Positions 7,609 to 32,487 of a stretch of DNA of 64,000 bases are shown piece by piece. The stretch comes from Dasania marina DSM 21967. GTDB taxonomy: Bacteria; Pseudomonadota; Gammaproteobacteria; Pseudomonadales; Dasaniaceae. How positions within the stretch are numbered: position 1 is the stretch's first letter; each line of letters begins with the position of its first letter. Location: assembly GCF_000373485.1 (NCBI RefSeq), contig NZ_KB891575.1, forward strand, positions 124,001 to 188,000, written 5' to 3'. The notes beneath the pieces are model-generated. The model saw only the letters and a list, made by a program, of their open reading frames with translations. It searched no databases and was not told the DNA's origin. The translations under genes were made by a program, and so were the position numbers.

Positions 7609-8763
7609 TTAGCCCTCCTGCTGGGCCATAACGCATCCATGTTTACGCTTGCCGATCGCAAGAACAAAAAATAACAGGCTCAGTAATACCGCAACAGCAG
7701 CCAGTATATTCACAGCAATATAGTCATTAGCGGTAATAAATAACGCCGCAAGGCTAGGCCCTATAGCCGCGCCAGTGGCATGAAATGCCGGAGCAATAGC
7801 TACCGCACGCCCCCCTTTGTCTACCGCATTAACTGCCGCGTATTGAAAAGCTAAAGAAAAGTTCCACGCAAAATTGTATAGCGCAAGCGCAAGCACAAAC
7901 TGCAACAGGCTCATTCCCGCTAATAATAAACATAGTGATAACAAGGTAATAACCGCCCCTATAGTCAAAGGCCGCACATAACCCCATCTATCCCCACACC
8001 ATGCTGCAGCTAGCGCCCCCAGCACGCCTAAAGAAACACCTGCCGAGAGAGCCATACCAATAAATTTGGCGGAAAAGCCATTGGCATAGGCCATTCTTTC
8101 TATAAAGGTCCACACCACCCCCACATTAAAAAAGAACAGCAAACATCCGCCCAAAGCCCATAGCGCTGCGGATGTTGGTAATATTTTTTTAACCGGCGGC
8201 TGAGTCACTGCCATACCCGCTTGCGGCAAAGCCGAAACCAAACATAGGCCCACAACAGCCAACACACTAAACAAAATAAGCCCAGCCTTGGCACCAGCTA
8301 CCGCCGTTAGTGTCGGTAAAAAAAACAAACCTATAACCTGAAAAAGAACTTGGGCCGCTAGCGAGAACCCAAAGCAACGCTCTGAATTGCGATTATCCGA
8401 TAGCGCGGTTAGCACTAATGAATAAGCTGACCCCCCACCTAAGCCTCCTAGAAACACTAAAAGAAAAAAAACCAGTAAGCCATCAGCAAATATAGCGCCA
8501 AAGAAAATCACCGCAACCACACTCAGCGCTATATAAGCCGCTTTATGCCAATCAACTTTACGCACCCAAAACATCGCCAGCACTGAGCTAATCGCTGACC
8601 CCAACATAAGCGTAGAAGCCAGCCAAGCTATCTGCGGGCTGTTTAATCCCCTGTCACTAGCGACGGCACCAACAAACAAGGGAAGAACTAAAAACGGTGC
8701 CATCGAAATAAAACTTATAGCAACGGCGGCTGCGACGGCTGAGCGATCATTGACGGTAGTCAT
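7609..8763 (-). CDS. MFS transporter of accessory island 1
   Basis: This 384-residue protein has about twelve membrane segments and the general layout of the major facilitator superfamily. Its sequence is clearly related along its whole length to the transporter at 28340-29542: both have FWVR(R/K) after the third segment, FFFN(I/V)G.VWT(F/Y)IERM in the middle, a GDR(W/Y)G loop between segments 8 and 9, and NFS..(F/Y)QYAAVN near segment 10. It lies 56 bases downstream of the TonB receptor on the same strand, so the two are likely cotranscribed. The probable job is moving across the inner membrane a compound brought in by the receptor. Substrate and direction are unknown. Confidence 0.8.
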   Translation of the reverse strand: MTTVNDRSAVAAAVAISFISMAPFLVLPLFVGAVASDRGLNSPQIAWLASTLMLGSAISSVLAMFWVRKVDWHKAAYIALSVVAVIFFGAIFADGLLVFFLLVFLGGLGGGSAYSLVLTALSDNRNSERCFGFSLAAQVLFQVIGLFFLPTLTAVAGAKAGLILFSVLAVVGLCLVSALPQAGMAVTQPPVKKILPTSAALWALGGCLLFFFNVGVVWTFIERMAYANGFSAKFIGMALSAGVSLGVLGALAAAWCGDRWGYVRPLTIGAVITLLSLCLLLAGMSLLQFVLALALYNFAWNFSLAFQYAAVNAVDKGGRAVAIAPAFHATGAAIGPSLAALFITANDYIAVNILAAVAVLLSLLFFVLAIGKRKHGCVMAQQEG

Positions 8764-8819
8764 GCTTAGGGTTGACCTCTGTTAATTTTCAAATAAACAC
8801 CACAAACCGCCACTATACT

Positions 8820-10991
8820 TTAAAACCTGTAGGTAGCCTCTATGCCATAAGTACGTGGCATAGAAGGTATTCCCTGCAGGCCACTGAACTCAGAACCAAA
8901 GAACAGGCCAGTAATGGGGTACTTCCACAATACCGAGTCACTTTTTTTATCTGCTAGGTTTTTACCCCACAAATACACACTATAACTTTCATCGGCAGAT
9001 ACATAACCTATACGCGCGTTAACTAAAGTTAAGCCTTCCACTAACAAGTCTTTATCATTAACCGCATCGGTATAGGAGTCATCTTTGGTAGAACCATCAA
9101 CATGAAGTTCCAACACCGCACCAGAATTTAATGGGTACCAGTAATCCATATTGGCCGCGGCAGTCCAGTCAGACACTAATTGCAGCTTGTTACCATCGCA
9201 GTCCACACCTACACCATTGCAATCATCGTAAGAGGTGTATTCGTGATCCAACACGCCAGCGCTAAAGCCAAAGGATAAATTATCGGTAGCCACCCAGCGC
9301 AGCTCCAACTCTATACCGTTAATTTCTGACTCACCGGCATTAGTAGTGGTAAACCCTATGCCTAATAGCTGGCCGACTTGCATATCTTCATAATCGGTGC
9401 GGAAGATAGAGGCATTAACCTCCATGCTTCTTTCAAAGAAGGAACCTTTCAAGCCCAACTCATAGGAGGTAGCGGTTTCAGCGCCAAATTCAAATAGCTC
9501 GGGACTGGTAAAATCAATCACATCAGTTTGAAAACCACCACTTTTCGTCCCCCTACGTATAGAGCTGTAAACCTTGATGTTTTCATCAATGGCATAGCTA
9601 GCGCTAACATCACCAGACCATGATTGGTCACTGATATCAGGTGAGAAAGATACCGTAGGGAAACCTATACCCGCATTTTCTAGCTGGCTAAACTGACTGC
9701 TTTTATCTTCATCGGTGTAACGCAGCCCTAGGGTTAAGGTTAAATCTTCAGTGGGGTACACATTTAAAGTACCAAACGCAGCCCAAGCTTTGGTATCGAC
9801 TTCGCTTTCGCTAAGAATACCAATAGTATTTTCAGGGTAAGGTAAAACCGATGTTACCCTAGCAGCCTCTATCGATTGGTCTAAATAGTAAAGCCCTGCC
9901 ACATAGTCGTAGCTGTCATAAGATGGCGAAACTATTTTAAACTCCTGACTAAAGGTGTCGGAGTCATCTTGAAACTCTGAATAGGTTAACGTTAATGGCC
10001 CAGCATCATCATCGGCCAACAACTCAAAGTCTGCAAAACGCTTGGCGGTAATAGAGCTTAAGATAAATTCCGACTCCGTTTCAAAATTTACTGTTAGGCT
10101 GCTACCGCCACTTTTTATCTTTTCGCTATTTGGATCGTTGCTGTTAATTTTATGCGAGCTACTTTGATACCATCCGGCAGCAATATCGTTTAGCCCTGGC
10201 TCTCTAGTAGCACCAAAAATCTGTCTATTATCCTGCTCTAAATAATCGCCAGAAAAAATAATTTCTGTGCGGTCGTTAGGCGTCCAATACAAGCCCATGC
10301 GCCCACCTACACGATCTTCACTCATCTGATCTTTACCATCGCTAATGTTTTTAACATAACCATCACGCTGAAAAGAAAAGCCACTAATTTTACCGTTAAG
10401 CGTGCCTTCGACTATTGCGCCTGAAACACCAGCCTCAACATTAACTTTCGAGTAGTTACCTAAAGTGGTTTTAATCTGGCCTTGAAATTCGTCATAGGGC
10501 ATTTTCGTTGTAATATTAATAGCCCCGGCAATAGTATTGCGGCCAAATAAAGACCCCTGTGGACCACGCAGCACTTCAACCTGCTGTATATCACTGAGCG
10601 GGAAATTAAACGAAGCCGGACGACCCGCATAAACACCGTCTATATATACCCCCAAGCCACTTTCCTGGCCTGCATTTCTGGACACACTGACGATGCCGCG
10701 TAAGCCCCATGAGTTAAGCGAGTTGCCATTGGGGTCCATCGCCAGGTTAGGCACGTTAGTGACTAAGTCACTAACCGATGTAGCACCTAAATTCTCTATT
10801 GTGGTCTCTCCTAAGGCGGTAATAGCTACAGGTATATCCTGTACATTTTCCTGACGCTTTCGTGAGGTTACAATTAACTCTTCAATAGTGGCGTTCTGGC
10901 CTAAAGCCGGCGTGGCCACAGCGCCCATACCCGCACCGGCAATAGCGGCACAGATTGCGGTAGTTTTAAACCTAGACGATATTGTTTTCAT
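8820..10991 (-). CDS. TonB-dependent outer-membrane receptor, island 1
   Basis: This 723-residue outer-membrane receptor has a signal peptide (positive N-terminus, hydrophobic core, cleavage after TPALGQ near residue 32) and a TonB box EELIVTSRKR. The plug domain carries GVYIDGVYAGR and QVEVLRGPQGSLFGRNTIAGAINI, and a long beta-barrel follows with a terminal aromatic residue (TYRF). The plug sequence belongs to the large group annotated as iron-complex receptors, but that group in marine bacteria often takes up organic nutrients, and no siderophore genes are nearby. The neighbouring MFS transporter, S58 peptidase and AraC regulator suggest import of an organic amide or peptide. A motif shared with the AraC promoter lies 156-172 bases upstream. 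Confidence 0.9.
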   Translation of the reverse strand: MKTISSRFKTTAICAAIAGAGMGAVATPALGQNATIEELIVTSRKRQENVQDIPVAITALGETTIENLGATSVSDLVTNVPNLAMDPNGNSLNSWGLRGIVSVSRNAGQESGLGVYIDGVYAGRPASFNFPLSDIQQVEVLRGPQGSLFGRNTIAGAINITTKMPYDEFQGQIKTTLGNYSKVNVEAGVSGAIVEGTLNGKISGFSFQRDGYVKNISDGKDQMSEDRVGGRMGLYWTPNDRTEIIFSGDYLEQDNRQIFGATREPGLNDIAAGWYQSSSHKINSNDPNSEKIKSGGSSLTVNFETESEFILSSITAKRFADFELLADDDAGPLTLTYSEFQDDSDTFSQEFKIVSPSYDSYDYVAGLYYLDQSIEAARVTSVLPYPENTIGILSESEVDTKAWAAFGTLNVYPTEDLTLTLGLRYTDEDKSSQFSQLENAGIGFPTVSFSPDISDQSWSGDVSASYAIDENIKVYSSIRRGTKSGGFQTDVIDFTSPELFEFGAETATSYELGLKGSFFERSMEVNASIFRTDYEDMQVGQLLGIGFTTTNAGESEINGIELELRWVATDNLSFGFSAGVLDHEYTSYDDCNGVGVDCDGNKLQLVSDWTAAANMDYWYPLNSGAVLELHVDGSTKDDSYTDAVNDKDLLVEGLTLVNARIGYVSADESYSVYLWGKNLADKKSDSVLWKYPITGLFFGSEFSGLQGIPSMPRTYGIEATYRF

Positions 10992-11146
10992 AATACTTTC
11001 CCCACTAGTTTTGAGACTAAAATACTTACATTATTTATTTTTGTTTTACTCAGAAAAATGTACTGGCTGACTTAATAAGCTTCAGTATTCATTAAGCAGC
11101 GCCGTCAATAATGACGTTTCCTTACAGCGTTTGCATTGACACTGAA

Positions 11147-11163
11147 TGACAATTGTTGACGCA
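11147..11163. promoter_or_regulatory. Candidate operator upstream of the TonB receptor
   Basis: TGACAATTGTTGACGCA here matches 13 of 17 bases, counted by eye, with the sequence at 12500-12516 in front of the AraC-type gene. A nearby inverted repeat, CGTCA and TGACG separated by four bases, lies at 11104-11117. Binding by the AraC-type protein encoded in the island is inferred from the shared motif and the neighbourhood. Confidence 0.4.
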
Positions 11164-11168
11164 GATGG

Positions 11169-11190
11169 AAAAAAGGCAGCCGAAGCTGCC
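11169..11190 (-). terminator. Intrinsic terminator after the S58 peptidase gene
   Basis: On the minus strand GGCAGC, the tetraloop TTCG and GCTGCC are followed directly by six T. It lies 24 bases beyond the peptidase stop codon, so the peptidase transcript probably ends here and the TonB-MFS pair has its own promoter. Confidence 0.85.
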
Positions 11191-11213
11191 AAGGAGACCA
11201 GAAAAAAGTATTA

Positions 11214-12350
11214 CTACTCACGCAATCTAGAATAACTAGCCATTACACGACACAAGGCATCGTGGTCTATAGCCTCTAAAACACGACCAGCAGGTTTTAT
11301 AGTTGCCACTGACTCTGCCGCTATCATGGCATTTAACACTGATTCCTCTACCGCCTGCACGGTCGCCAAGTAAAGCGTGTCGCAGTGAGCATCGTTCAAA
11401 CACTCAAGATTAAAGCTGGTGGGCTGCTCTGCCCCCAATGGCGGCATAATGATGTCGTTAGCGGTAGAAAAAGCCATCATAATATCGCCAGAAAAATGGC
11501 CACCATAGGTGCCAGTACGCCCTATACCCAAGGCCCCACGTTTAGCTAAACGCTTAAGCTGAGCGGGCAGTAATGGCGCATCGGTAGCTATAATAACCAC
11601 TATAGATCCCTGCTCATGGCCACTGCTTTCAGTAATAATGGCGTTTTCAGTAATATGCTGGCCCACCGGCACACCACATACGGAAAATTCCGGCCGCAAA
11701 CCAAAGTTTGATTGCACCAAAGCCGCCACCGTATATTGTGTGCCCTGCACCTCTACCACACGCGAACTGGTACCCGTGCCACCTTTAAACTCATAGCTTT
11801 GCATACCAGCACCGCCGCCCACGTTCCCCTCAGCCACAGGGCCAGTAGTTGCGGAATCTAGCGCTGCCAAAACATGTTCTTCTTTAATATGTCGGCCGCA
11901 AATATCGTTTAATAAGCCATCGTAAGTCTCGGCAATCACCGGCATGGCCCAAGAGTGATACTGCTCAAAATAGTCCTTATGCTGTTCCAACATCCAGCCG
12001 ACGGTAGCGTGATGAGCCATACCTACGGAATGCGTATTGGTTATGCAAATAGGGCTGATAAAATAGCCTGCGTCCTCTATCCAGTGTGAGCCCGTCAGCT
12101 CACCATTGCCGTTCAAATCATAAAGCCCTGCCCATACCGGCCGAGGCAGCTCTTGTCGGCCCCTAGGCAATATTGCTGTCACGCCGGTATAGACCGGCCC
12201 ACTACCTACCTTTAGTGGGCCATCCCCGCTATTCAAAGTGCAATACCCCACCTCTACGCCAGACACGTCAGTAATGGCATTCCATTTTCCCGGCGTCCCC
12301 TCTAATGGCAAGCCCAAATCTCTAGCTCTTGGGGGGGCAACTTTTTTCAT
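11214..12350 (-). CDS. S58 family aminopeptidase/amidase (DmpA/BapA/NylC-like)
   Basis: The protein belongs to peptidase family S58, N-terminal nucleophile enzymes that include the L-aminopeptidase/D-esterase DmpA, beta-peptidyl aminopeptidases and nylon-oligomer hydrolase NylC. The precursor cuts itself to expose a catalytic serine. Family landmarks are GVTAILPRG, NVGGGAGM, FKGGTGTSSR, and GSIVVIIATDAPLL, where cleavage would occur between G248 and S249, close to Gly249-Ser250 of DmpA. The C-terminal part has the expected RTG and AFSTAN elements. The ATG at 12350 was chosen because GAGGAT sits 7 bases upstream; an in-frame GTG nine codons earlier is less likely. No signal peptide is present, so it acts in the cytoplasm. 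It is divergent from the AraC regulator. The exact substrate is unknown. Confidence 0.88.
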   Translation of the reverse strand: MKKVAPPRARDLGLPLEGTPGKWNAITDVSGVEVGYCTLNSGDGPLKVGSGPVYTGVTAILPRGRQELPRPVWAGLYDLNGNGELTGSHWIEDAGYFISPICITNTHSVGMAHHATVGWMLEQHKDYFEQYHSWAMPVIAETYDGLLNDICGRHIKEEHVLAALDSATTGPVAEGNVGGGAGMQSYEFKGGTGTSSRVVEVQGTQYTVAALVQSNFGLRPEFSVCGVPVGQHITENAIITESSGHEQGSIVVIIATDAPLLPAQLKRLAKRGALGIGRTGTYGGHFSGDIMMAFSTANDIIMPPLGAEQPTSFNLECLNDAHCDTLYLATVQAVEESVLNAMIAAESVATIKPAGRVLEAIDHDALCRVMASYSRLRE

Positions 12351-12540: not shown

Positions 12541-13590
12541 ATGCCCCAAGCCAACTTAAACCAGCCTATTATCAGTACCGTTTATTCCAAAATATTAATC
12601 GATTTTTTAAGCGGGAAAGGCGTTGATGTGGATCAGTTTTTAACACAGCTTTCGCTACAAAAATACTCACTAACACAGCCCGACACCATCTTACCCATGG
12701 CCACGTTTCAAATGATGATGGAAGAAGCTGCACGCTTTACCGGCGACGAAAATATTGGCTTACATTATTATGAAAATATCGAACTACAAGATTTAGGCGT
12801 TTTAGGTTACGCACAAATGAATAGCAAAAGTATTCGTGATGCTTTGAATATAATTACACGCTACTACAAACTTTTTCAAAGTGACAACGAAATGCTGCTC
12901 AGCGAAAATAACGGCAATATTCATTTATCTTATAGAATATTATCTAAAAAAATCATTCCCAGTCGACAAGACTCTGAAATGACAATCATGGCTTTTGTTG
13001 CGACTATTTCCGCACTATTAGGTAAGCCTTGGCGGCCTATAGAAGTACACCTGCAACACCCCCAGCCCACAGATATAAGCGAACATCAACGATTGCTATG
13101 CAATAAAATCTTCTTCAGTAGCCCAACCAATAAAATCGTTTTTGACTCATCGCTATTAGACACAGCCATCGCTGGTGCCGACTTAAAACTTAGTAGTTCT
13201 TTAGAAGACGCCTTAGAGCAATTGCTCAGTTTTAAAATTCCTGCCCCTAACGACCAATGGCTACATGAGGTACAGGACGCCATTATCGAATCGCTGAGCA
13301 ATGGCCCACCTAATATCAATGAAATCGCCGAGAAGTTTCATATGAGTGGCCGAACCCTGCAAAGACGATTGGAAAAATACGACCTTAGCTTTAAGGAAAT
13401 GCTAGAGCAAATACGCCTACAAATTGCCACCAATTTCCTAGAGGCAACAGACTTATCATTGCTGGATATCGCATTTATGCTCGGTTACTCCGAACTCAGC
13501 TCCTTTACCCGCGCCTTTCGCCGCTGGACCAATCACCCCCCCTTAGAATTTCGCCTGCTACACCGCGCCCAACCGTCAGATAACGGCTAA
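12541..13590 (+). CDS. AraC-family transcriptional regulator
   Basis: This 349-residue regulator has an N-terminal domain of the arabinose-binding type found in OruR/ArgR-like AraC proteins (TVYSKILIDFLSGKGVDVDQFL onward, about 10-200). A C-terminal pair of helix-turn-helix motifs follows (about 245-345), with MSGRTLQRRLEKYDLSFKEML and DIAFMLGYSELSSFTRAFRRWT, the AraC signature. It is divergent from the S58 peptidase gene and probably activates the island in response to its substrate. The start is an ATG at 12541, without a strong ribosome site. The inducer is unknown. Confidence 0.9.
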   Translation: MPQANLNQPIISTVYSKILIDFLSGKGVDVDQFLTQLSLQKYSLTQPDTILPMATFQMMMEEAARFTGDENIGLHYYENIELQDLGVLGYAQMNSKSIRDALNIITRYYKLFQSDNEMLLSENNGNIHLSYRILSKKIIPSRQDSEMTIMAFVATISALLGKPWRPIEVHLQHPQPTDISEHQRLLCNKIFFSSPTNKIVFDSSLLDTAIAGADLKLSSSLEDALEQLLSFKIPAPNDQWLHEVQDAIIESLSNGPPNINEIAEKFHMSGRTLQRRLEKYDLSFKEMLEQIRLQIATNFLEATDLSLLDIAFMLGYSELSSFTRAFRRWTNHPPLEFRLLHRAQPSDNG

Positions 13591-13683: not shown

Positions 13684-14727
13684 ATGAGCAGTACATCTAT
13701 GACAGCCCCTACCGACTTAATTTGGCAGAGCAAAAAACCAGCAACCGCTAACTGGCAACAACAGCTGAAAACACTGATACGCGAGCCTGCCCAGCTATTT
13801 GCCCTGCTGGGCCTACAAGCCGAGGATATGCCCGCACACCTAGCGGCCTGCCAGGACTTTTCCCTGCGCGTGCCCATGGCTTTTGTCGATAAAATGCAGC
13901 CCGGCGACTGGAACGACCCTTTATTGCTGCAAGTGCTGCCACAAGGGGCCGAACTGCTAGCGCAACCGGGCTTTATCGCCGACCCCCTGCAAGAGCAGAG
14001 CAACAACCCCCACCCCGGCTTGATACACAAATACCATGGCCGGGTGCTATTGGTGGTGAGCGGCGGCTGCGCCATCAACTGCCGCTACTGCTTTAGACGT
14101 CACTTTCCCTATGAGGATAACAACCCCAGCCGCAAGGAGTGGCAAACCGCACTGGACTATATCGCCGCCGACAGCAGCATAACTGAGGTGATACTTAGCG
14201 GCGGCGATCCGCTGGTCGCCAGTGACAAGCAATTGGCCGAGCTAGTCGAAAATATAGCCGCCATCCCCCATGTGCACACCCTGCGGGTTCACAGCCGCCT
14301 GCCACTGGTCATCCCCGAACGGATTAGCGATGAATTCGTCACCCTGCTCACCAGCAGCCGCTTACAAACCGTGTTTGTGATTCACTGCAACCACGCCAAC
14401 GAATTAGACAGCCGCGTACAGCAAGCCATGGCCAAGCTCAAGGCGGCAGGCGTTACTTTACTCAACCAGTCGGTATTACTAGCGCAGGTCAATGACAACA
14501 GCGCAGCGCTGCAGGCACTAAACGAAAAACTCTTCGCTATGGGCGTACTACCCTATTACTTACATGTGCTTGATAAGGTGCAAGGGGCGGCCCATTTTGA
14601 TGTAGCCGAAAGCCACGCCATAGACCTGATTGAGTCACTGCGGGCCAAGCTGCCCGGCTACTTAGTGCCTAAATTGGTAAGGGAATTACCCCAACAAGCT
14701 TCAAAAACCCCCATCCCTGCACATTAA
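13684..14727 (+). CDS. epmB: EF-P beta-lysylation enzyme, lysine 2,3-aminomutase EpmB
   Basis: EpmB (YjeK) is a radical-SAM enzyme that converts L-lysine to (R)-beta-lysine for transfer to EF-P by EpmA. The 347-residue protein has the iron-sulfur motif C129-x3-C133-x2-C136 in SGGCAINCRYCFRRHFPY, followed by the LSGGDPL and LRVHSRLP elements of the KamA family. It is shorter than true lysine 2,3-aminomutases of clostridia (over 410 residues), as expected for EpmB. Either of two ATGs (13684 or 13699) could start it. In Escherichia coli epmB sits directly beside efp; here 6.7 kb of accessory genes lies between them. Confidence 0.93.
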   Translation: MSSTSMTAPTDLIWQSKKPATANWQQQLKTLIREPAQLFALLGLQAEDMPAHLAACQDFSLRVPMAFVDKMQPGDWNDPLLLQVLPQGAELLAQPGFIADPLQEQSNNPHPGLIHKYHGRVLLVVSGGCAINCRYCFRRHFPYEDNNPSRKEWQTALDYIAADSSITEVILSGGDPLVASDKQLAELVENIAAIPHVHTLRVHSRLPLVIPERISDEFVTLLTSSRLQTVFVIHCNHANELDSRVQQAMAKLKAAGVTLLNQSVLLAQVNDNSAALQALNEKLFAMGVLPYYLHVLDKVQGAAHFDVAESHAIDLIESLRAKLPGYLVPKLVRELPQQASKTPIPAH

Positions 14728-22557: not shown

Positions 22558-24237
22558 ATGGCGTATTCACCCATTAGCAAGATTATTAGCAAGATCATCC
22601 ATGTAGGCGAGAGCGGCCAGCAGCAAGGCATTCCCCTCAAAGAAGCCTTAGAAATACATGACGAGCAAGCCTTAATTCTGGCAAAACAACAAAAACAACA
22701 GCAGTTAGAAAACCAGGACCGCAGAAACTTTTTGCAAAAAACCGGCGTAGCAGCGGCCGTGGCAACGGTAGCTGCAGGCGGTATATTATCGCCACTTTCA
22801 GCTAAGGCCCAGGGCGGCCCACCTTCGTCATCTGACCCGCGCGTGGCCGTAATAGGTGCAGGGCTGGCCGGCTTACGCTGCGCCCACAGGCTCAATAAGC
22901 TAGGCAGCGGTTTTAATATCAGCGTATACGAGGCCTCTACCCGCTTAGGCGGCCGCTGTTATACCGCCAGAGGTTATTTTGATGACGGCCAGATCACCGA
23001 ATGGGGTGGCGAGTTTATCAACACCTCACAAACCGAAATCCGCAACCTCGCCCACAAACTGGGGCTAACACTGGATGACGAACATGCCTCCCCCCCAGAC
23101 GGCAAGCAATGGATGGGCTATGTGGATGGCCAGTACTACACCGAAAGCCAAATCGGCAGCGACTGGGATATAGAGCTAATCCTAACCCTTAACAACGCCC
23201 TACAGGCCGCCCCCAACCCTGGCCAAGTCACCTACGAAAACTACAATGCAGAGCACCTGCGCTTAGACAATATGCTAGCCGCCGACTGGATGGATGAAAT
23301 AGGCCTAGGCCGCAACAGCTCTATAGGCAGGCTAATGCTAGGCCTAGGGGTAAGCGAATTAGGCGTAGACCCCAATGAGCAATCAGCTCTCAATATGCTG
23401 GGCATTATGGGCACTAGGCCACAGCCTGCCGCTGAACGCTTCCGCATACGCGGCGGCGCCGATCAACTCATCACCGGCATGGAACAAGAACTACCCAGCG
23501 GCACGGTGGTTACCGATAAAGCCCTTACCGCCATACAAGGTGACTCCAACGGCCCTTACACCCTCAGCTTTAACGATGGCAGCTCCGCCGTGTGCGACGC
23601 CCTAGTATTGGCACTGCCCTTCACCACCTTGCGCGATGTCGATATAGCCCCCGCTATTTGGAATGCCTTCCGCCCGCAAAAACGTCAGGCCATCAACGAG
23701 CTAGGCATGGGTCACAACGCCAAAGTACAGGTGCAATGTAACAGCCGCACTTGGCACAACCCCATCAATGTAGGCGGTGAAATTATCAGCTGTAATGGCA
23801 GCACCCTAACCGACCCCGACAGCCATATCGTTAGCTGGGATCCAACCTCCAACCAAGCGGGCAGCAAAGGCGTACTGGCTAATTACTTAGGGGGCAGCAA
23901 AGGCTTAAACCTTAGCAGCACCCAGCCATTCCAAGTTTCACACGCCAATGATGTCAGTAACTTTTTAAATAGCGTAAACAATGTTTTCCCGGGTACTGCT
24001 GCCGCCTTTAATGGCAAAGCGTTAACCTCAGACTGGACGATTAACCCTTGGTCTAAAGGCTCTTACTCTAGCTTTTGGCAGGGCCAGTACACCAGCTTTG
24101 GTGGTGCGCCAGCCAAACCGGAAGGCAATATATTCTTTGCCGGTGAACATACCGACAGCAAAGACCATGGTTACCTTAACGGTGCCGTACGCTCGGGGGA
24201 GCGCGCCGCGATAGAAGTACTACACACCTTCTATTAA
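22558..24237 (+). CDS. Tat-exported flavin monoamine oxidase
   Basis: The 559-residue flavoprotein belongs to the amine oxidase family (monoamine, polyamine and L-amino-acid oxidases). The FAD-binding motif VAVIGAGLAGLRCAHRL begins near residue 95, followed by LGGRCYTAR; the C-terminal FAD region reads FFAGEHT. A twin-arginine signal, RRNFLQK at 55-61, precedes a hydrophobic stretch and the cleavage region AKAQ, so the folded protein should reach the periplasm. The Tat motif sits after an unusually long 54-residue, Gln-rich n-region. AGGAG lies 8 bases before the ATG. The product would be an aldehyde or imine with ammonia and hydrogen peroxide, and an aldehyde dehydrogenase gene follows. The substrate is unknown. 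Confidence 0.85.
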   Translation: MAYSPISKIISKIIHVGESGQQQGIPLKEALEIHDEQALILAKQQKQQQLENQDRRNFLQKTGVAAAVATVAAGGILSPLSAKAQGGPPSSSDPRVAVIGAGLAGLRCAHRLNKLGSGFNISVYEASTRLGGRCYTARGYFDDGQITEWGGEFINTSQTEIRNLAHKLGLTLDDEHASPPDGKQWMGYVDGQYYTESQIGSDWDIELILTLNNALQAAPNPGQVTYENYNAEHLRLDNMLAADWMDEIGLGRNSSIGRLMLGLGVSELGVDPNEQSALNMLGIMGTRPQPAAERFRIRGGADQLITGMEQELPSGTVVTDKALTAIQGDSNGPYTLSFNDGSSAVCDALVLALPFTTLRDVDIAPAIWNAFRPQKRQAINELGMGHNAKVQVQCNSRTWHNPINVGGEIISCNGSTLTDPDSHIVSWDPTSNQAGSKGVLANYLGGSKGLNLSSTQPFQVSHANDVSNFLNSVNNVFPGTAAAFNGKALTSDWTINPWSKGSYSSFWQGQYTSFGGAPAKPEGNIFFAGEHTDSKDHGYLNGAVRSGERAAIEVLHTFY

Positions 24238-24409: not shown

Positions 24410-25873
24410 ATGCAAATGTATCTCAACGGCGAATGGCTAGACGCTCAGGACGGCGAACAAATACCTGTTATCAACCCTGCCACCGAATCCCTTATAGACA
24501 CGGTACCCAATGCCGGCCCCAGCGATGTGGAACTCGCGGTGCAATCCTCAGCACAGGCCTTTCAGCTTTGGAAAAAAACCGTTGTGCCTGTTAGAAGTCA
24601 ATTTTTACAGGGCATGGCGCAAAAACTTGCCCAGCATAAAGAAGCATTAGCTCAGCAAATAACCCTAGAACAAGGTAAAACCCTATTCGAGTCCCGCTGC
24701 GAAATCGACTGGTCTATAGAATGTATAGAGTATTATGCGCAGCTGATAAAAAACGGCATAGGCCGTGTGGTACCCCCCATTTACGACTCAGCGTTTAATT
24801 TTGTAATTAAAGAACCCTATGGCGTCACCGCCTGCATTATTCCGTTTAATTATCCTTTTCTGTTAATGTTCTGGAAGATTGCCCCGGCACTCGCCGCAGG
24901 CAATACCGTAATCATTAAACCTTCAGAAAAAACACCACTGGCCACCTTAATGCTGGCCAAAATGGTGTTTAGTGATTTCCCCAAAGGGGTGATCAACATT
25001 ATTACCGGCCTAGGTGAAAAAATGGGGGACGCCCTCACCTGCCACCCCGACGTACCCACCATAGCCTTCACCGGCTCTACCGCAACCGGCGCAAGAATCG
25101 CGCAAAAAACCGCGGGCATGGTTAAAAACCTACACTTGGAACTAGGCGGTAAAGACGCCGCCGTGGTGGCCCCCGATGCCGATATCCAGTTGGCCGCCAG
25201 AGCCTTCGCCAGCTCATCACTGTGGAATGCCGGACAAATCTGCACCTCAACGGAACGCATCTACGTGCCGCGGCAAGCCTACCCACAATTTATCAAAGCC
25301 CTGCTTGCGGTATACACAAATATACAAGTAGGCCACGGCAATGATGACAGCACCCAAATGGGGCCGCTATGCGATGAAAATAGCATACATAAAATCAACG
25401 CCCACGTAGCAGACGCCATCGCCAAGGGCGGGACATTACTAATAGGCGGTCAAAAATGCCCGCAATTTGAGCAAGGATTTTTTTATCAGCCCACCATTAT
25501 TAGCAACGCCAACCACAGCATGAAATGCATGAACGAAGAATCCTTTGGCCCCCTAGTGGCAGTGATGCCCTATGACGATTTTGCTGAGGCCATCGCCTAT
25601 GTCAATGCCACAGACTACGGCCTAGGCGCCTGCCTAATGAGTAACGACATGCACCTTATTCGTCAGTTTTACCAAGAGGTTAAGGCCGGCACCATTTGGA
25701 TTAACGACACTCTACCCGACAATGTCGCGGCCCCTTTTGGCGGCATGAAAAAAAGCGGCACAGCTAGCAGAGAGCTAGGCCCTGAAGGCTTAGAAAGCTT
25801 TCAAGAAAGCAAACACGTGCACTGGGAATTTGACCCTAGGCAACGGCAAGAAAATTGGTTTTATGGCGAATAA
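24410..25873 (+). CDS. NAD(P)-dependent aldehyde dehydrogenase
   Basis: This 487-residue enzyme oxidises an aldehyde to a carboxylic acid. It has the family glutamate E244 in LELGGK and the nucleophile C278 in NAGQICTSTE, 34 residues apart as usual. FTGST and EESFGPLVAV are also present. The ATG at 24410 was chosen because it gives the normal family start (YLNGEWLDAQDGE); a 48-residue in-frame extension covers the terminator hairpin and is not protein-like. No signal peptide is seen, so it works in the cytoplasm while the amine oxidase is exported; the aldehyde would have to cross the membrane. It resembles the succinate-semialdehyde/lactaldehyde/betaine aldehyde group, but the substrate cannot be fixed. 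Confidence 0.9.
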   Translation: MQMYLNGEWLDAQDGEQIPVINPATESLIDTVPNAGPSDVELAVQSSAQAFQLWKKTVVPVRSQFLQGMAQKLAQHKEALAQQITLEQGKTLFESRCEIDWSIECIEYYAQLIKNGIGRVVPPIYDSAFNFVIKEPYGVTACIIPFNYPFLLMFWKIAPALAAGNTVIIKPSEKTPLATLMLAKMVFSDFPKGVINIITGLGEKMGDALTCHPDVPTIAFTGSTATGARIAQKTAGMVKNLHLELGGKDAAVVAPDADIQLAARAFASSSLWNAGQICTSTERIYVPRQAYPQFIKALLAVYTNIQVGHGNDDSTQMGPLCDENSIHKINAHVADAIAKGGTLLIGGQKCPQFEQGFFYQPTIISNANHSMKCMNEESFGPLVAVMPYDDFAEAIAYVNATDYGLGACLMSNDMHLIRQFYQEVKAGTIWINDTLPDNVAAPFGGMKKSGTASRELGPEGLESFQESKHVHWEFDPRQRQENWFYGE

Positions 25874-25931: not shown

Positions 25932-28220
25932 ATGCACTATAAAAAACGCTTAGCCGCCGCCATCACCGCCGCGGTCGCAATCAACTGCCCCATAAGCCAC
26001 GCTGCCGTGTTAGAAGAAGTCATAGTCAGTGCGCAAAAACGTAATGAAAGCCTACAGGATGTGCCGATTGCGGTAGCCGCTTTTTCGCAGGAGGAATTAA
26101 AAAAATCCGGCGCCAATGCGGTGCAAGATTTAATCGAATTTGTACCCGGCGTAGAATTATTTGATGATCGCGGTGCCGGCCAACCCACTTGGGTTATACG
26201 TGGCGTAGGCCTGGCGGATTTCAACTCCAACAACACCCCCGCCTCTGCCATTTATTACGATGATTTTTACCTAAGTTCCAATGTAATGGGCGGTATAGGC
26301 TTATTTGATATAGAGCGGGTAGAAATTCTTAAAGGCCCGCAAGGCGGCCTCTACGGTAAAAACACCAGCGGCGGTGCAATACTCATACATTCACAAGCCC
26401 CCTCACTACAAGATGGCAATAACGGTTACCTGAAAGCCTCTTACGGCAAATGGAATAGCAGCACACTGGAAGGCGCTGTAGGCACAGCCCTTAGCGATAA
26501 AGTAGCCATACGTTTAGCGGCCACCACCCACCAGGGCGGCGGCTGGCAGGACTCTTTAGCCACCGCTAAAGATGACGAATGGGGCGACAGTGATTTTAGT
26601 GCCTACCGCGCACAATTATTATTTCAAGCCAACGAAAATGTGGATGTGCTATTTAAAATCGATGGCGGCTACGACCGTTCCGAAACCACCCTGCTATACA
26701 ACCAACCGGTATACGACGCGGTCGGTGATTTTTGTCAGGCCGCCATTAATGGCAAGGCCGATGAGGATAGCTGCTTTACCTTTGGTAATGTACTAGATCC
26801 CAGCCTACCGCTACCCTCAGAGCAAAACAAAGATGGCACCAAAGTGTTAGCGCCACCGACTAATGAGTTAGATAACGCATGGCAGGCGCTCTCTATGCGT
26901 ATTAACTGGGATATGGATTTTGCCACCTTTACCGCCATCACTGGCTATATCGATTACGAGAATAAACAAGAGTTTGATTTTGATGCCGAAGCGCCCAACT
27001 TTTTAAATGAAAGAGAGGGTGATGCCGAAATTAAATCTTGGTCACAAGAATTTAGGCTCACCTCTAACAGCAGTAACAAGTTGGAATGGTTAGTGGGCTT
27101 CACCTATGCCGAAGATGAGATATCCGATAACCGTAAAGGCGATTTAACCGACTTTCCTTTTTTCCAAACCTCTAGCGAAAGAGGCTTTGAGCAGGAAAAT
27201 AAATCCTGGTCTACCTATGTGCAGTTGAAATACCAACTTAACGACTACTTGGCCGCCAATGGCTCGCTGCGCTACACTGACGAAGAAAAAGAGATCTTTA
27301 ACGTCTTCCATTACAACGTAGATCCACTCAACAACTTCGGCGGCCCTAGCTATTTTATTAATAATGTAAAAACCGACTATGAACTGGATAATAATTATTC
27401 TGGCCACTTAGGCTTAGATTGGACCCCCAATGAAGATGTACTGGTGTACGGTAAAATAACTCAAGGCTTTAAATCCGGTGGTTTCTTTGGCGGCTTCGCC
27501 TTTTATGAAAGCGATGTACAACCTTATAAAGAAGAGCGCGTGCTCTCCTATGAAGTAGGCTTTAAAAGCAATTGGCTAGACAACACCCTACGGGTTAACG
27601 GTGATATCTTCTTTTACGATTATCAGGAAGTACAAGGATTTATAATAATCGAAAGTGATGTCACCAACACCCAGCTGTCGAAGCTGGATAATATGGGCGA
27701 TGCCGAACACTTAGGCTATGAGCTAGATATTATTTGGTTGCCACAAGCGGTAGAGGGCTTAAAACTAGCCGGCAGCTTTACGTGGTTGAACGCCAAATTT
27801 ACCGAAGCCGATAAAACTCCGGTATTCGACCCCGCTGGTAATACCCAAACCCTAGACGGCTTAGACAGAACCTTTGCCCCTGACTTTAGCTATACCTTGC
27901 AAGCCAATTACAGCTGGATGCTTAACGACGCTTACGAGGCCGAGGCCGAGCTAGGTTACAACTGGCGCGATGATATCGTCTCTAAAGACTCAACTATCAG
28001 CCCATTAGATCACGCAACAAAAGGCCAAGATGGGTACGGCCTGCTAAACGCGCGCTTATCTATCGCTGATGTAGAGGGACGTTGGGAGCTTGCTCTAGCT
28101 GGCAAAAACTTAGCCAACGAAGAGTATGCCGCCCGTGTTACCACCGACGATGTTGTTACCTACCCGCTAGTACCTGGGCAACCCCGTAGCTGGTCTATAG
28201 AAGCGCTGTATAACTGGTAG
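25932..28220 (+). CDS. TonB-dependent outer-membrane receptor, island 2
   Basis: The 762-residue receptor has a signal peptide (KKRLAAAITAAVAINCPISHA, cleavage near residue 25) and a TonB box LEEVIVSAQKR. The plug has YYDDFYLSS and RVEILKGPQGGLYGKNTSGGAILI, and the beta-barrel ends in YNW. GGAG lies about 8 bases before the ATG. The plug fingerprint is of the same broad class as the receptor at 8820-10991, and both are followed by a related MFS transporter. The protein probably carries the island's substrate across the outer membrane using TonB energy. Confidence 0.9.
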   Translation: MHYKKRLAAAITAAVAINCPISHAAVLEEVIVSAQKRNESLQDVPIAVAAFSQEELKKSGANAVQDLIEFVPGVELFDDRGAGQPTWVIRGVGLADFNSNNTPASAIYYDDFYLSSNVMGGIGLFDIERVEILKGPQGGLYGKNTSGGAILIHSQAPSLQDGNNGYLKASYGKWNSSTLEGAVGTALSDKVAIRLAATTHQGGGWQDSLATAKDDEWGDSDFSAYRAQLLFQANENVDVLFKIDGGYDRSETTLLYNQPVYDAVGDFCQAAINGKADEDSCFTFGNVLDPSLPLPSEQNKDGTKVLAPPTNELDNAWQALSMRINWDMDFATFTAITGYIDYENKQEFDFDAEAPNFLNEREGDAEIKSWSQEFRLTSNSSNKLEWLVGFTYAEDEISDNRKGDLTDFPFFQTSSERGFEQENKSWSTYVQLKYQLNDYLAANGSLRYTDEEKEIFNVFHYNVDPLNNFGGPSYFINNVKTDYELDNNYSGHLGLDWTPNEDVLVYGKITQGFKSGGFFGGFAFYESDVQPYKEERVLSYEVGFKSNWLDNTLRVNGDIFFYDYQEVQGFIIIESDVTNTQLSKLDNMGDAEHLGYELDIIWLPQAVEGLKLAGSFTWLNAKFTEADKTPVFDPAGNTQTLDGLDRTFAPDFSYTLQANYSWMLNDAYEAEAELGYNWRDDIVSKDSTISPLDHATKGQDGYGLLNARLSIADVEGRWELALAGKNLANEEYAARVTTDDVVTYPLVPGQPRSWSIEALYNW

Positions 28221-28241
28221 TACGCCTTTATAGAAAAACCT

Positions 28242-28292: not shown

Positions 28293-28339
28293 AACAACGG
28301 CCTGCAGCTTGTCGCTGCATCGCCTCCTACGGCAAAGTT

Positions 28340-29542
28340 ATGAACACATCTTATGTTGAAGAAACGCTTGCAGAAACTATAGCGCCTACTCACAACCCTA
28401 ATGCTACTAGTATTTTTCGTCCAAAATCGATTGCAGCAGCGCTGTGGCTTAATCTTGTAGCCTCACTAATGGTGCTAATACAGCCCGTCATTATTGGCGC
28501 TACCGCCAACCAATTCAGCCTTAACAATCAACAGCTGGGTTATTTTTCTGCCGCTTTATTATTACTGTATAGCCTAAGCTCTACCTCTGCTTTATTTTGG
28601 GTACGACGCTATAACTGGCAGTACAGCGCGGCGATTAGCTTAGCGCTATTTATTAGCGGTTTTTTTATTGCCATGTCATCCGAGCAATATCTCATTAAAT
28701 TCATTGCCTTTGGCTTTATTAGTTTGGGCAGCGGCGCCTTATATTCGCTGACCCTAATTATTTTATCTGACGCTCCCAACCCTGATCGTGCTTTTGCTTA
28801 CGCCATATCTATGCAGGTTGTGGGTTCTAGTCTACTTATTTTTCTCATTCCGCAAGCTGTTAACCTGTGGGGCTTTGACAGTATTTACAGCCTAATGGCA
28901 GGTATGGCGCTATCGGGGCTGGCTGTTATTTACTGGTTGCCATGCGCCGGTAGAAACGTTGAGAATCTTAGCCCTAACGCACTAAGCGTATTAACTAACC
29001 CCAAAGCCTTGCTCTCTGTTGCCGGCTGCTTTTTGTTTTTCTTCAATATAGGTTGTGTGTGGACCTATATAGAAAGAATGGGCGTGGCCTCAGACTTAAC
29101 CACTGAAAGCGCCAGCACCTTACTCGCTATAGCTGCCATGATAGCCATCATAGGCTCTTTGGCAGCATCCTTTTTAGGCGATCGCTACGGCAGGCTTAAG
29201 CCTTTATGTTTAGCAACCGCAGGCATAGTGTTAGCGGTTTATGGCTTGTCTTTTACCATCTCCGCAGAGTTTTATTTTGTTTCCGCACTGCTATACGCCG
29301 CCATGTGGAACTTCTCCATGCCTTACCAATATGCGGCGGTTAATCAATGCGACCCCTCAGGTAAAGCAGTAGCACTAACACCGGCCTTTCAAACTCTGGG
29401 CGGCGCGTTAGGCCCAGCCGTCGCAGGCTTATTAATTTCTAACAGCGATTTTATTGCGGTAGGGCATTTAGCCACAGCCGGCGTAGTACTGAGCTTATGC
29501 CTGTTTGCTTTTGCCTTAAAAAACGCTAAACAAACCGCTTAA
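28340..29542 (+). CDS. MFS transporter of accessory island 2
   Basis: This 400-residue protein has about twelve membrane segments and is a paralogue of the island 1 transporter at 7609-8763 (shared FFFNIGCVWTYIERM, GDRYGRLKPL, NFSMPYQYAAVNQ and a TP.FQTLG.ALGP element near segment 11). A hydrophilic N-terminal tail of about 35 residues comes before the first segment. It sits between the receptor and the two amidases and probably imports their substrate from the periplasm. Direction and substrate are inferred only from context. Confidence 0.82.
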   Translation: MNTSYVEETLAETIAPTHNPNATSIFRPKSIAAALWLNLVASLMVLIQPVIIGATANQFSLNNQQLGYFSAALLLLYSLSSTSALFWVRRYNWQYSAAISLALFISGFFIAMSSEQYLIKFIAFGFISLGSGALYSLTLIILSDAPNPDRAFAYAISMQVVGSSLLIFLIPQAVNLWGFDSIYSLMAGMALSGLAVIYWLPCAGRNVENLSPNALSVLTNPKALLSVAGCFLFFFNIGCVWTYIERMGVASDLTTESASTLLAIAAMIAIIGSLAASFLGDRYGRLKPLCLATAGIVLAVYGLSFTISAEFYFVSALLYAAMWNFSMPYQYAAVNQCDPSGKAVALTPAFQTLGGALGPAVAGLLISNSDFIAVGHLATAGVVLSLCLFAFALKNAKQTA

Positions 29543-29595
29543 TTTTAATCAGCAAAACCCTATGTATTAACATTTATGTATTGAAGGAAAGTATT

Positions 29596-31023
29596 ATGTC
29601 TAATGAATTGTGTTATTTATCGGCGGTAGACGCCATACAATTATTTAGCTCTGGAGAACTATCGCCAGTAGAAGTATTACAGGCGCAAATCGACCGCGCC
29701 CAGCAAGTGGAGCCCGAGGTAAATGCCTTAGTGTTTACCTTTTACGACGAAGCTATGGACATGGCTAAAGCTGCCGAAAAAGCCTATCGAAATGGCACGG
29801 CTAGGCCCTTAGAAGGTATCACCGTGGCCATAAAAGATGAGCTAGCCCACAAGGGTAAACCTAGCACCCATGGCTCGTTATTATTGAAAGATCATATAGC
29901 CGATAACAATGCTCCAATGATGCAACGCTTACTCGATGCTGGCGCCATACCCCATGCCCGCACCGCCACCCCTGAATTTTGTATGCACTCCTGCACCATG
30001 TCGAAATTATGGGGCGTTACTCGCAACCCATGGAACTTGGCCTATAGCCCCGGCGGTTCATCGGGCGGTTCTGGTGCGGCATTAGCCTCAGGCACCACCA
30101 CCCTAGCCACCGGCAGCGATATTGCAGGATCTATACGCATACCCGCGTCGCAAAATGGCATAGTTGGTTACAAACCGCCTTTTGGCCGCGTACCGCAGTC
30201 GCCACCCTGGAGCTTTGACACTTACTGCCACGAAGGCCCCATGGCTAGAACTGTTGCCGACACCATCTTATTTCAAAACCAAATTAACGGCCCCCACCCC
30301 AGTGACATTGCCAGCTTAAGCCCCAAACTTATTCTGCCTAACAGCTACGACAATATCGCCGGTATGCGCATAGCCTACAGCTTAGATTTTGAGCATCGTG
30401 TAGTGGATAATGATATACGTGAAAACACCTTAGTTGCGCTACAGAAATTTCGCGATCTAGGCGCTATCGTTGAAGAAGTCTCTATAGGCTGGACTTCACG
30501 CTGCCGCCAAACCTATTTAACCCACTTATATTTTTATGCCATGGGTATACTAAAAAAATCCCTTACCGACCCTGCCGAGCACGAACAACTCACCACCTAT
30601 GTACGCTTTTTATTAGAGCAGTCTAACGGTGTTAGCATTCCCGACATTATTGATTCTAAGCAACATGAAGGTGAAATGTACCAACAGTTTACTCACGCAA
30701 CCGCAGACTATGATTTATTTATCTGCCCCACCATGGCAACCGCTAGCTTTGCCGCCGATTGGGATTTTAGTACTACCCCACTAGAAATAAATGGCAAAAC
30801 ATTAAATGTTAATTTTGTAACGGAAATGCTGACCTATTACTTCAATATACTCAGCCGCTGCCCGGTATTAAACATGCCAGCGGGTAAAGATAGAAATAAT
30901 GTGCCCACCGGCATACAAATTGTAGGCAAGGCTTACGACGAACACAGTGTGTTTAAAGCGGCTAGCGCCTATGAATCCGTCAATAAACCATTTTTTGCTA
31001 CCGGTGATTATCCCAAGCTTTAA
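29596..31023 (+). CDS. Amidase signature enzyme, first of tandem pair
   Basis: The 475-residue enzyme belongs to the amidase signature family, which hydrolyses carboxamides using a Ser-cisSer-Lys triad. The triad is complete and spaced as in GatA-type enzymes: K80 in IKDE, cis-S155 in GGSSGGSG and nucleophile S179 in GSDIAGSI. AAGGAAAG precedes the ATG at 29596; an upstream in-frame TTG would add only five residues. No GatB or GatC gene is near, so this is not the tRNA amidotransferase. No signal peptide is seen. The next gene encodes a same-length paralogue. The family also includes NylA, fatty-acid amide hydrolase and aryl-amidases; the substrate here is unknown. A perfect 30-bp palindrome covers its stop codon. 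Confidence 0.9.
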   Translation: MSNELCYLSAVDAIQLFSSGELSPVEVLQAQIDRAQQVEPEVNALVFTFYDEAMDMAKAAEKAYRNGTARPLEGITVAIKDELAHKGKPSTHGSLLLKDHIADNNAPMMQRLLDAGAIPHARTATPEFCMHSCTMSKLWGVTRNPWNLAYSPGGSSGGSGAALASGTTTLATGSDIAGSIRIPASQNGIVGYKPPFGRVPQSPPWSFDTYCHEGPMARTVADTILFQNQINGPHPSDIASLSPKLILPNSYDNIAGMRIAYSLDFEHRVVDNDIRENTLVALQKFRDLGAIVEEVSIGWTSRCRQTYLTHLYFYAMGILKKSLTDPAEHEQLTTYVRFLLEQSNGVSIPDIIDSKQHEGEMYQQFTHATADYDLFICPTMATASFAADWDFSTTPLEINGKTLNVNFVTEMLTYYFNILSRCPVLNMPAGKDRNNVPTGIQIVGKAYDEHSVFKAASAYESVNKPFFATGDYPKL

Positions 31024-31036
31024 AGCTTGGGATAAT
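31007..31036. repeat. Perfect 30-bp palindrome over the stop codon of amidase 1
   Basis: The left arm ATTATCCCAAGCTTT is mirrored exactly by its complement with no spacer. The TAA stop (31021-31023) sits at the centre, and the next amidase starts 24 bases beyond. No T-run follows, so it is not a classical terminator. It could stabilise the upstream message, be an RNase site, or bind a dimeric protein. Confidence 0.9.
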
Positions 31037-31059
31037 AGTGAGCGTAAGGCTACTCAATA

Positions 31060-32487
31060 ATGTCTGAACAACTTTGCTATTTATCGGCAACAACGGCAAT
31101 CAAACACTTTTCATCGGGCGAGCTATCGCCCGTAGATATTCTGCAAGCACAAATTGCCCGGGCAGAAAAAGTGGAACCTACCGTTAACGCTTTAGCTTTT
31201 CAGTTTTATGAAGAAGCCTTACAGGCCGCGCAAGCGGCCGAGCTCGCTTATAGGCAAGGCCGCGCCAAACCCTTAGAAGGTATCACCCTAGGGGTAAAAG
31301 ATGAAACTGCGCAACAGGGCAAGCCTTGCACCCAGGGCTCGCTATTATTAAAAGATGCTATCGCTGACCACACTTCACCGATGTTACAGCGCTTGCTAAA
31401 CGCTGGCGCTATTGCCCACGTACGCACCACCACCCCTGAATTTTGCATGCACTCCAACACCCTCTCTAAACTATGGGGCGTTACCCGCAATCCTTGGAAT
31501 AGTGCCTACAGTGCTGGCGGCTCATCGGGCGGCTCAGGCGCTGCCCTAGCTTCTGGCACAGCCACCCTAGCTACCGGCAGTGACATAGGCGGCTCTATTC
31601 GTATACCCGCTTCACACAATGGCATAGTCGGTTATAAACCGCCCTATGGTCGTGTGCCGCAATCACCGCCATGGAATTTCGATACTTACTGCCACGAAGG
31701 ACCTATGGCGAGATCGGTAGCTGATATTATTTCATTTCAAAATCAAATCGCCGGCCCTCACCCCAGCGATATTACCAGCCTCAGCCCCAAGCTTATTCTG
31801 CCCAACAGCTATGACAATATCGTCGGCATGCGCATAGCTTATAGCTTGAACTTAGGCCATAGGGAAGTGGATGTAGACGTACAACAGAACACCTTGGCCG
31901 CCGTCAAAAAATTTCAGGACTTAGGCGCCATCGTAGAAGAAGTGACTATAGACTGGACTGAACAATGCATAGAGACATTTTTCACCCACATCTATTTTTA
32001 TGCTATCACTGTTTTAAAACAACAGTTTGGTTCGCCCGCACAGTTAGAACAGTTAACGCCTTATGTGCAATCACTGTTTGCCGACAGCAAAGTGATTAGT
32101 ATAGATGACCTACTCAACGCCAAAGCGCATGAGGCTGAAATGTATCAGGCCTTTACCCGCGCTATGGCATCTTATGACGTGCTGATATGCCCCACCGCAG
32201 CTACCGCAAAAGTGCCCGCCGACTGGGACTACAGTGTTAACTCGCTATGCATCAACGGCAAGTTGATTAGTCCCAATTTTGGCTCCGACTCTATGACTTA
32301 TTATTTTAATAGCCTAAGCCGCTGCCCAGTGCTGAGCATGCCCTCCGGTAAAGATAGTAATAAGGTGCCTACCGGCATACAAATTGTGGGCAAGGCCTAC
32401 GACGAGCACAGTGTGCTTAAAGCGGCTAGCGCTTATGAAACGCTGCAAAAGCCGTTTTTTGAATGCGGGGATTATCCTAGATTTTAA
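31060..32487 (+). CDS. Amidase signature enzyme, second of tandem pair
   Basis: Like its upstream neighbour this protein has 475 residues and aligns with it without gaps; by eye about two thirds of residues are identical. The triad K80 (VKDE), S155 (GGSSGGSG) and S179 (GSDIGGSI) is intact. The core around the triad and HEGPMAR is nearly unchanged. Most differences fall at about 310-420, where side chains that shape the substrate pocket are expected. The pair therefore looks like a tandem duplication whose copies have diverged in substrate range. It is the last gene of the island on this strand; a hairpin at 32516-32545 follows. Confidence 0.9.
   Translation: MSEQLCYLSATTAIKHFSSGELSPVDILQAQIARAEKVEPTVNALAFQFYEEALQAAQAAELAYRQGRAKPLEGITLGVKDETAQQGKPCTQGSLLLKDAIADHTSPMLQRLLNAGAIAHVRTTTPEFCMHSNTLSKLWGVTRNPWNSAYSAGGSSGGSGAALASGTATLATGSDIGGSIRIPASHNGIVGYKPPYGRVPQSPPWNFDTYCHEGPMARSVADIISFQNQIAGPHPSDITSLSPKLILPNSYDNIVGMRIAYSLNLGHREVDVDVQQNTLAAVKKFQDLGAIVEEVTIDWTEQCIETFFTHIYFYAITVLKQQFGSPAQLEQLTPYVQSLFADSKVISIDDLLNAKAHEAEMYQAFTRAMASYDVLICPTAATAKVPADWDYSVNSLCINGKLISPNFGSDSMTYYFNSLSRCPVLSMPSGKDSNKVPTGIQIVGKAYDEHSVLKAASAYETLQKPFFECGDYPRF

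Follow-up and report, generated by a model that had tools for sequence, protein, structure and literature searches.

Two amide-hydrolase islands of Dasania marina probably belong to a family of TonB receptor loci for organic nitrogen built around one MFS subfamily

In a stretch of 64,000 nucleotides from Dasania marina DSM 21967 (contig NZ_KB891575.1, positions 124,001 to 188,000; hereafter the window, whose numbering is used below), two gene islands each combine a TonB-dependent receptor (TBDR), an inner-membrane carrier of the major facilitator superfamily (MFS), a regulator and an amide hydrolase of a different family. Our reading, to which we give a probability of about 0.6, is that both islands belong to a large family of loci for organic nitrogen, laid out like the carbohydrate utilization (CUT) loci: besides a TonB receptor and a local regulator, each has an MFS carrier from a single subfamily and enzymes for opening C-N bonds. 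The two carriers would descend from one ancestor that was already tied to amide-hydrolysing islands, the receptors and hydrolases having been swapped in separately. The islands share a related carrier, but neither a common receptor nor a common enzyme, and their most likely role is the uptake of amides or N-acylated compounds. The genome is gammaproteobacterial and of 4.1 Mb; its closest relative in the comparison, from the same genus, is called the sister species, and other loci and genomes are cited by L and G numbers. The genes of island 1 (7609-13590) and island 2 (21521-32487) are as follows.

7609..8763, reverse strand: MFS1, inner-membrane carrier (PF07690, E 2e-17)
8820..10991, reverse strand: TBDR1, TonB-dependent outer-membrane receptor (PF00593 and PF07715)
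11214..12350, reverse strand: S58 N-terminal-nucleophile hydrolase of the DmpA/BapA type (PF03576, E 1.6e-111)
12541..13590, forward strand: AraC-family regulator, divergent from the S58 gene (PF12625 and PF12833)
21521..22186, reverse strand: TetR-family regulator (PF00440)
22558..24237, forward strand: flavin amine oxidase with a twin-arginine export signal (PF01593, E 1.7e-52)
24410..25873, forward strand: aldehyde dehydrogenase, ALDH (PF00171, E 3.5e-156)
25932..28220, forward strand: TBDR2, TonB-dependent receptor (NCBIfam TonB receptor models, plug domain)
28340..29542, forward strand: MFS2, inner-membrane carrier (PF07690, E 2.7e-16)
29596..31023, forward strand: AS1, amidase-signature (AS) hydrolase (PF01425, E 2.9e-89)
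31060..32487, forward strand: AS2, amidase-signature hydrolase and tandem paralogue of AS1 (PF01425, E 7.8e-91)

All the genes listed in the original prediction for this DNA were found where it had placed them, with intact active-site motifs and strong matches in the family scans (MFS_1, TonB receptor, Peptidase_S58, AraC, TetR, Amino_oxidase, Aldedh and twice Amidase). The short intergenic gaps, of 56-222 bp in island 1 and 28-119 bp in island 2, suggest that both islands are operons. As that prediction held, MFS1 and MFS2 are paralogues over their full length (36% identity and 58% similarity over 379 residues, E = 8e-68), the carrier gene directly follows the receptor gene on the same strand in both islands (after 56 bp in island 1 and 119 bp in island 2), and the hydrolases come from families that are not homologous, S58 (PF03576) and amidase (PF01425). 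The two receptors are 24% identical, which is ordinary for the receptor superfamily. In a tree of 43 carriers, MFS1, MFS2, two relatives from the sister species, a carrier of Parahaliea and one from G330 form a single clade (ultrafast bootstrap 96, SH-aLRT 99), in which MFS1 is nearest to the Parahaliea carrier (98/96) and not to MFS2. In the receptor tree (41 sequences), TBDR1 stands with a Parahaliea receptor and that of L038 (99), the latter from an island with a hydrolase resembling histone deacetylases (HDAC-like) and, at 43%, its nearest receptor in its own genome; TBDR2 groups with the receptors of L045a, Parahaliea L023 and L185 (93). Forcing TBDR1 and TBDR2 into one clade costs 106 log-likelihood units and is rejected by the approximately unbiased (AU) test, with p about 4e-93. 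The sequences of both trees were chosen by hand, partly from match lists, and lineages absent from them could shift branches.

Because the carriers form one clade but the receptors belong to different lineages, we conclude that the carriers have a common ancestry and that the receptors were recruited separately. The idea of two versions of one module thus survives for the carriers and for the layout of receptor, MFS and amide hydrolase, but not for descent, since the receptor-carrier pairs appear to have been brought together independently, an outcome that the prediction itself had counted as refuting. Duplication of one ancestral receptor-MFS pair within the genome, each copy then acquiring a different amide hydrolase, would agree with the single carrier clade, the identical gene order and the distance of only 13 kb between the islands. 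Such a history is nevertheless very improbable: the receptors are not sisters, which largely refutes it, MFS1 is closer to the carrier of another genus than to MFS2, and the site of island 1 is occupied by another island in the sister species. With closely related carriers, but receptors kept apart by the AU test and hydrolases that are not homologous, we rejected the islands as duplicates of one module.

The carrier clade is tied to amide hydrolysis. All six members lie near an S58 gene, an AS gene or both, namely the S58 of island 1, the AS genes of island 2 and of its sister-species counterpart, an S58 in sister-species locus L059, both types in Parahaliea, and an AS gene in G330. The last is about 4 kb from its carrier, together with a malonyl-CoA decarboxylase and an AMP-binding enzyme; a receptor was not seen in that neighbourhood. 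Across the three surveyed genomes (D. marina, the sister species and Parahaliea), S58 or AS stands beside 5/5 carriers of the clade and beside none of the remaining subfamily carriers (0 of about 31), which amounts to one change on the tree and, if shared descent is ignored, to a random-draw p of 2.7e-6. Beyond these genomes, AS enzymes also accompany other subfamily carriers (L033, L035, L119 and L120). In three of those loci (L119, L120 and L033), which come from distant genomes, an AS enzyme, an M1-type peptidase, a subfamily MFS and a TonB receptor occur together, and L119 additionally has carboxyltransferase-domain genes that resemble 5-oxoprolinase.

A search for orthologues of MFS1 and MFS2 in 116 relatives and 392 genomes of the order gave only two weak matches beyond the genus, and a scan of a genome collection yielded Parahaliea. 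The MFS1 orthologues are 51% (Parahaliea L023) and 47% (sister species L059). In Parahaliea mediterranea L023, genes for an AraC regulator, an exported amidohydrolase, a receptor (30% to TBDR2), an HDAC-like hydrolase (nearest to HDAH and to propanil and dimethoate hydrolases), the MFS1 orthologue, an S58 (72%) and an AS enzyme run in one direction; the AS enzyme carries a twin-arginine signal, and a second receptor follows on the opposite strand. Just past the AraC gene are the light chain of a tryptophan-tryptophylquinone (TTQ) amine dehydrogenase, an ALDH and another subfamily MFS. Amide hydrolysis is thus placed beside amine oxidation, as in island 2, and nothing supports a substrate class common to both islands more strongly than this cluster. 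The proposal that the two islands serve a common class of amides is thereby favoured by the clade of six and by the union of both folds in one cluster, the substrate itself being our inference. Parahaliea also answers the expectation that an orthologue of either carrier should lie beside a receptor and an S58 or AS gene in another genome.

Receptor and subfamily carrier are not a mark of these two islands, for the pair recurs in about 15 islands of the genome, where other enzymes mostly accompany it. Family searches are the basis of the genome-wide counts: subfamily members were found with a two-sequence profile and receptors were counted by their plug domain. The profile gave 19 carriers for the window's genome, 14 for the sister species and 3 for Parahaliea, and the receptors number 63 and 52 in the first two. 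In the window's genome, 15/19 subfamily carriers have a TonB receptor within 4 kb, against 3/15 other MFS (Fisher p = 0.0014); for the sister species the figures are 8/14 against 4/17 (p = 0.075), and pooling both genomes gives p = 1.6e-4. The neighbours of the other subfamily carriers are mostly enzymes of nitrogen compounds: HDAC-like hydrolases (L038, L045, L181), nitrilase-type CN hydrolases (L049, L050), an AAT/C45 acyltransferase-family enzyme (L050), hydantoinase A (L048), class III aminotransferases with ALDH (L043, L051), paired amine oxidases with ALDH (L047), Rieske oxygenases (L045, L184), arginase-family proteins (L185, L189) and sarcosine oxidase alpha. Given this proximity and these neighbours, a receptor with a subfamily MFS is the general layout of a family of nitrogen-compound loci here, and the two islands are instances of it. 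Outside the genus, a receptor and a subfamily MFS also occur within 8 kb of the closest amidase homologues (45-46%; G229 and G114).

Several further arrangements were seen around these carriers and receptors. In loci L026, L027, L029 and L030, from Woeseiaceae and related metagenome-assembled genomes, a sarcosine oxidase alpha-like protein, a TonB receptor, a protein of 650-670 aa, a Rieske oxygenase and a subfamily MFS are conserved together. Tetratricopeptide repeat (TPR)-sulfotransferase proteins recur near TonB receptors (L051:4147-6165, L185, L120:5008-6582 and L182). At G000:C1:96916-97988 (L041, L054), a subfamily MFS gene is split into two frames and is probably a pseudogene.

By its sequence, the S58 enzyme of island 1 is of the DmpA type and not of the NylC type. 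Its full-length matches among solved structures are DmpA (1b65, 407 bits, the best) and BapA (3n2w, 311 bits); the search of the PDB returned DmpA/BapA types only and zero NylC chains at E 1e-3, which removes NylC-type hydrolysis and, with it, the parallel to nylon-oligomer degradation that had been drawn for this gene. The predicted autoprocessing site is G257/S258 in open-frame numbering (EQG/SIVVIIATD), so that the nucleophile Ser follows Gly, and the SGD motif at S296-D298 has the DmpA form. The likelier start is the ATG at 12350, in an open frame that extends to 12377, and no export signal was detected in the sequence. DmpA and BapA are beta-aminopeptidases that take beta-alanyl amides as substrates (PMC9235088); the island 1 enzyme resembles them in its whole-length match, the Ser nucleophile after Gly and the SGD/SGE motif; what sets it apart is the company of TonB receptor and MFS carrier genes. 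With the nylon-oligomer hydrolases NylC and Nyl12 it has the fold of the S58 superfamily in common, whereas the genome's own NylC-like enzyme is a separate, exported protein. That second S58, at L053:9343-10722 (G000:C11:259342-260721), matches NylC and Nyl12 with 190 bits and adjoins two TonB receptors, a PepSY protein and a large exported amidohydrolase with a beta-propeller. In L093, L094, L095 and L096, apparently complete ATP-binding cassette (ABC) importer operons precede DmpA-type S58 genes that are more distantly related; for L094, Pfam confirmed a solute-binding protein and an ATPase with a TOBE domain. These importers represent a different transport route for the same type of enzyme.

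In island 2, the amidase signature is intact in both hydrolases, with Lys85, the GGSSGGS motif at 158-164 and the nucleophile Ser184 in AS1, and with Lys80, the motif at 153-159 and Ser179 in AS2. The ATG at 29596 is the likelier start of AS1. The two are tandem duplicates of 71% identity, the pair (29596-32487) is intact in both species of the genus, and this conservation suggests two distinct roles. Neither reaches the cut-off of an NCBIfam equivalog model, and neither has an export signal, unlike the amine oxidase. Among solved amidase-signature enzymes the matches are 8xac (153.9 bits), aryl acylamidase (4yj6, 148.4) and NylA (3a2p, 145), so that NylA, the 6-aminohexanoate cyclic dimer hydrolase, is not the closest characterised amidase, and the similarity to it is mostly limited to residues 8-243. 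The likeness to these enzymes thus lies in the intact Lys-Ser-Ser frame and in matches of 145-154 bits, and the difference in the tandem pair beside a receptor and an MFS carrier. A twin-arginine signal that had been overlooked (RRNFLQKTG; TIGR01409, 19.4 bits against a cut-off of 16.7) is present in the amine oxidase, which has a paralogous pair in island L047 of its own genome. Since the solved monoamine, L-amino acid and nicotine oxidases are only distant relatives of the enzyme, they do not point to a particular amine. For ALDH, whose frame is open from 24266, the ATG at 24410 is the likelier start, and the orthologue in the sister species begins at the corresponding ATG.

The sister species has island 2 complete and in the same position (TBDR2 93%, AS enzymes 92-93%, amine oxidase 87%, MFS 84%, TetR 81%, ALDH 77%); for island 1 the position is not shared. 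Island 1 is inserted between two genes.

6447..7025, reverse strand: efp, left border of the insertion site (PF09285, PF08207 and PF01132)
13684..14727, forward strand: epmB, a radical SAM gene and right border (PF04055; 88% to the sister-species orthologue at the same site)

Outside the genus, 12/13 relatives in which both genes were found have an efp-epmB gap of 23-355 bp; in the remaining one, G004, the gap is 7.3 kb and holds a recombinase-like gene. In the window the gap contains island 1 (6.7 kb), and in the sister species (L191, G001:C19:127000-146900) a different island of 9.5 kb with AraC, TBDR, ALDH, the heavy and light chains of a TTQ amine dehydrogenase and cytochrome-like proteins. 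The sister species has its S58 (64%), MFS (47%) and AraC (39%) at another location.

If the islands are indeed organic-nitrogen loci of this family, the receptor would take an amide-containing or N-acylated compound across the outer membrane, and the MFS would carry this compound, or a periplasmic cleavage product, to the cytoplasm. There the unexported S58 of island 1 could cleave an N-terminal residue, for example beta-alanine, from an amide or dipeptide, as its fold and active site would allow. In island 2, AS1, AS2 or both, likewise unexported, are expected to split the amide through their triad, and the exported amine oxidase and ALDH, if coupled as their families suggest, would convert the freed primary amine to an aldehyde and then to an acid. 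AraC or TetR may sense an intermediate. A number of observations weigh against this interpretation. For island 2 the sequence of steps is ambiguous, as the amine oxidase is exported but the amidases are not. An AlphaFold2 model of MFS2 has the MFS fold (mean pLDDT 88), and a fold search of the PDB with it placed the carrier as a generic MFS whose nearest folds are importers and exporters alike; a profile search of the carriers against solved structures gave no match. Receptor and carrier distances across 24 independent pairs agree weakly (Mantel r = 0.13, p = 0.046), and few independent events underlie the clade of AS- and S58-associated carriers. S58 homologues of less than about 60% identity occur in some 20 other genomes of the order; none of them has a subfamily MFS in its vicinity and just two are within 5 kb of a receptor, for which reason we rejected an S58-MFS link as a general rule. 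Finally, no receptor lies within 19 kb of the S58-MFS pair of the sister species, so a receptor is not needed for that pairing.

Other functions were weighed against organic-nitrogen uptake. Amidases can inactivate antibiotics, and in a detoxification scheme the MFS would expel toxic amides and the hydrolases would inactivate the remainder, the receptors being chance neighbours or the toxin's door. A distant relation to multidrug MFS models (TIGR00880, E 2.6e-4) and the exporters NorA and VMAT among the fold-search matches of MFS2 are consistent with it, but the importers OxlT, FucP and XylE rank equally high, receptor proximity is strong, and in most islands subfamily carriers accompany catabolic enzymes (aminotransferases, ALDH, hydantoinase and amine oxidases), so that we hold detoxification to be quite improbable. 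Similarly improbable is that two unrelated catabolic loci are adjacent simply because the genome is rich in receptor islands, the likeness of the carriers having no functional meaning. With 63 receptors and 19 subfamily carriers in 4.1 Mb, and with hydrolase folds, regulators and receptors that are all unrelated, such a coincidence could be imagined; however, in three genomes S58 and AS are found only beside one carrier clade, and Parahaliea unites both hydrolases in one cluster.

Slightly less improbable, but still unlikely, is the scavenging of ferric hydroxamate siderophores or peptides, which the receptors would import and the hydrolases would break for iron or amino acids. Siderophores are the best-known cargo of TonB receptors, the best NCBIfam match is TonB-siderophore (below its cut-off), and the related islands L119, L120 and L033 join AS, MFS and receptor to an M1-type peptidase. 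On the other hand, neither island has a ferric reductase, an ABC siderophore permease or a siderophore gene, and the amine oxidase and ALDH, like the TTQ amine dehydrogenase of related loci, point to amine catabolism. From the S58 preference and the amine oxidation we arrive at a speculative guess within the nitrogen-uptake reading, about as doubtful as the siderophore scheme: the carrier clade could be dedicated to N-acylated amines, such as the beta-alanyl or acetyl conjugates of arylalkylamines of arthropod cuticle and nerve, in a TonB-dependent pathway for conjugated biogenic amines. Around this carrier, bacteria would exchange receptors, four amide-hydrolase folds (S58, AS, HDAC-like and amidohydrolase) and amine oxidation by a flavin oxidase or TTQ dehydrogenase with ALDH. 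A literature search on bacterial beta-alanyl amine catabolism gave mostly insect papers.

The architecture itself has known counterparts. CUT loci are carbohydrate utilization loci containing TonB receptors, for example suxABCR of Xanthomonas (PMC1790865). Both islands have the receptor, the MFS directly downstream and the regulator (AraC in island 1, TetR in island 2), and the similarity extends to the adjoining of receptor, inner-membrane transporter, degradative enzyme and regulator, to the many paralogous loci in a receptor-rich genome and to presence or absence between conserved flanking genes. Carbohydrate-degrading enzymes and sugar-related regulators are absent, and the enzymes are S58, AS, amine oxidase and ALDH; we therefore regard the islands as a variant of the CUT architecture and not as members of it. 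They differ further in that their enzymes act on amides, amines and amino compounds, that one MFS subfamily recurs in most loci, and that receptors and enzymes are exchanged. The statement that no system of this composition had been described was accordingly too strong, as the layout is that of CUT loci with enzymes of nitrogen compounds instead. DdvT of Sphingobium SYK-6, the TonB receptor for a lignin-derived biphenyl (PMC6874591), likewise serves a catabolic substrate that is neither carbohydrate nor iron, but this substrate is an aromatic acid and not an amide. A non-exhaustive literature search, with subscription journals largely outside it, found no amide or amine TonB locus of this composition. 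TonB receptor loci for carbohydrates are thus well described, and the same layout for organic nitrogen apparently is not. The carrier clade, its one-cluster version in Parahaliea and the exchanged island at efp-epmB offer concrete handles for finding the substrates, and the some 15 islands of receptor and carrier around C-N chemistry suggest that marine gammaproteobacteria may organise their uptake of dissolved organic nitrogen in this way.

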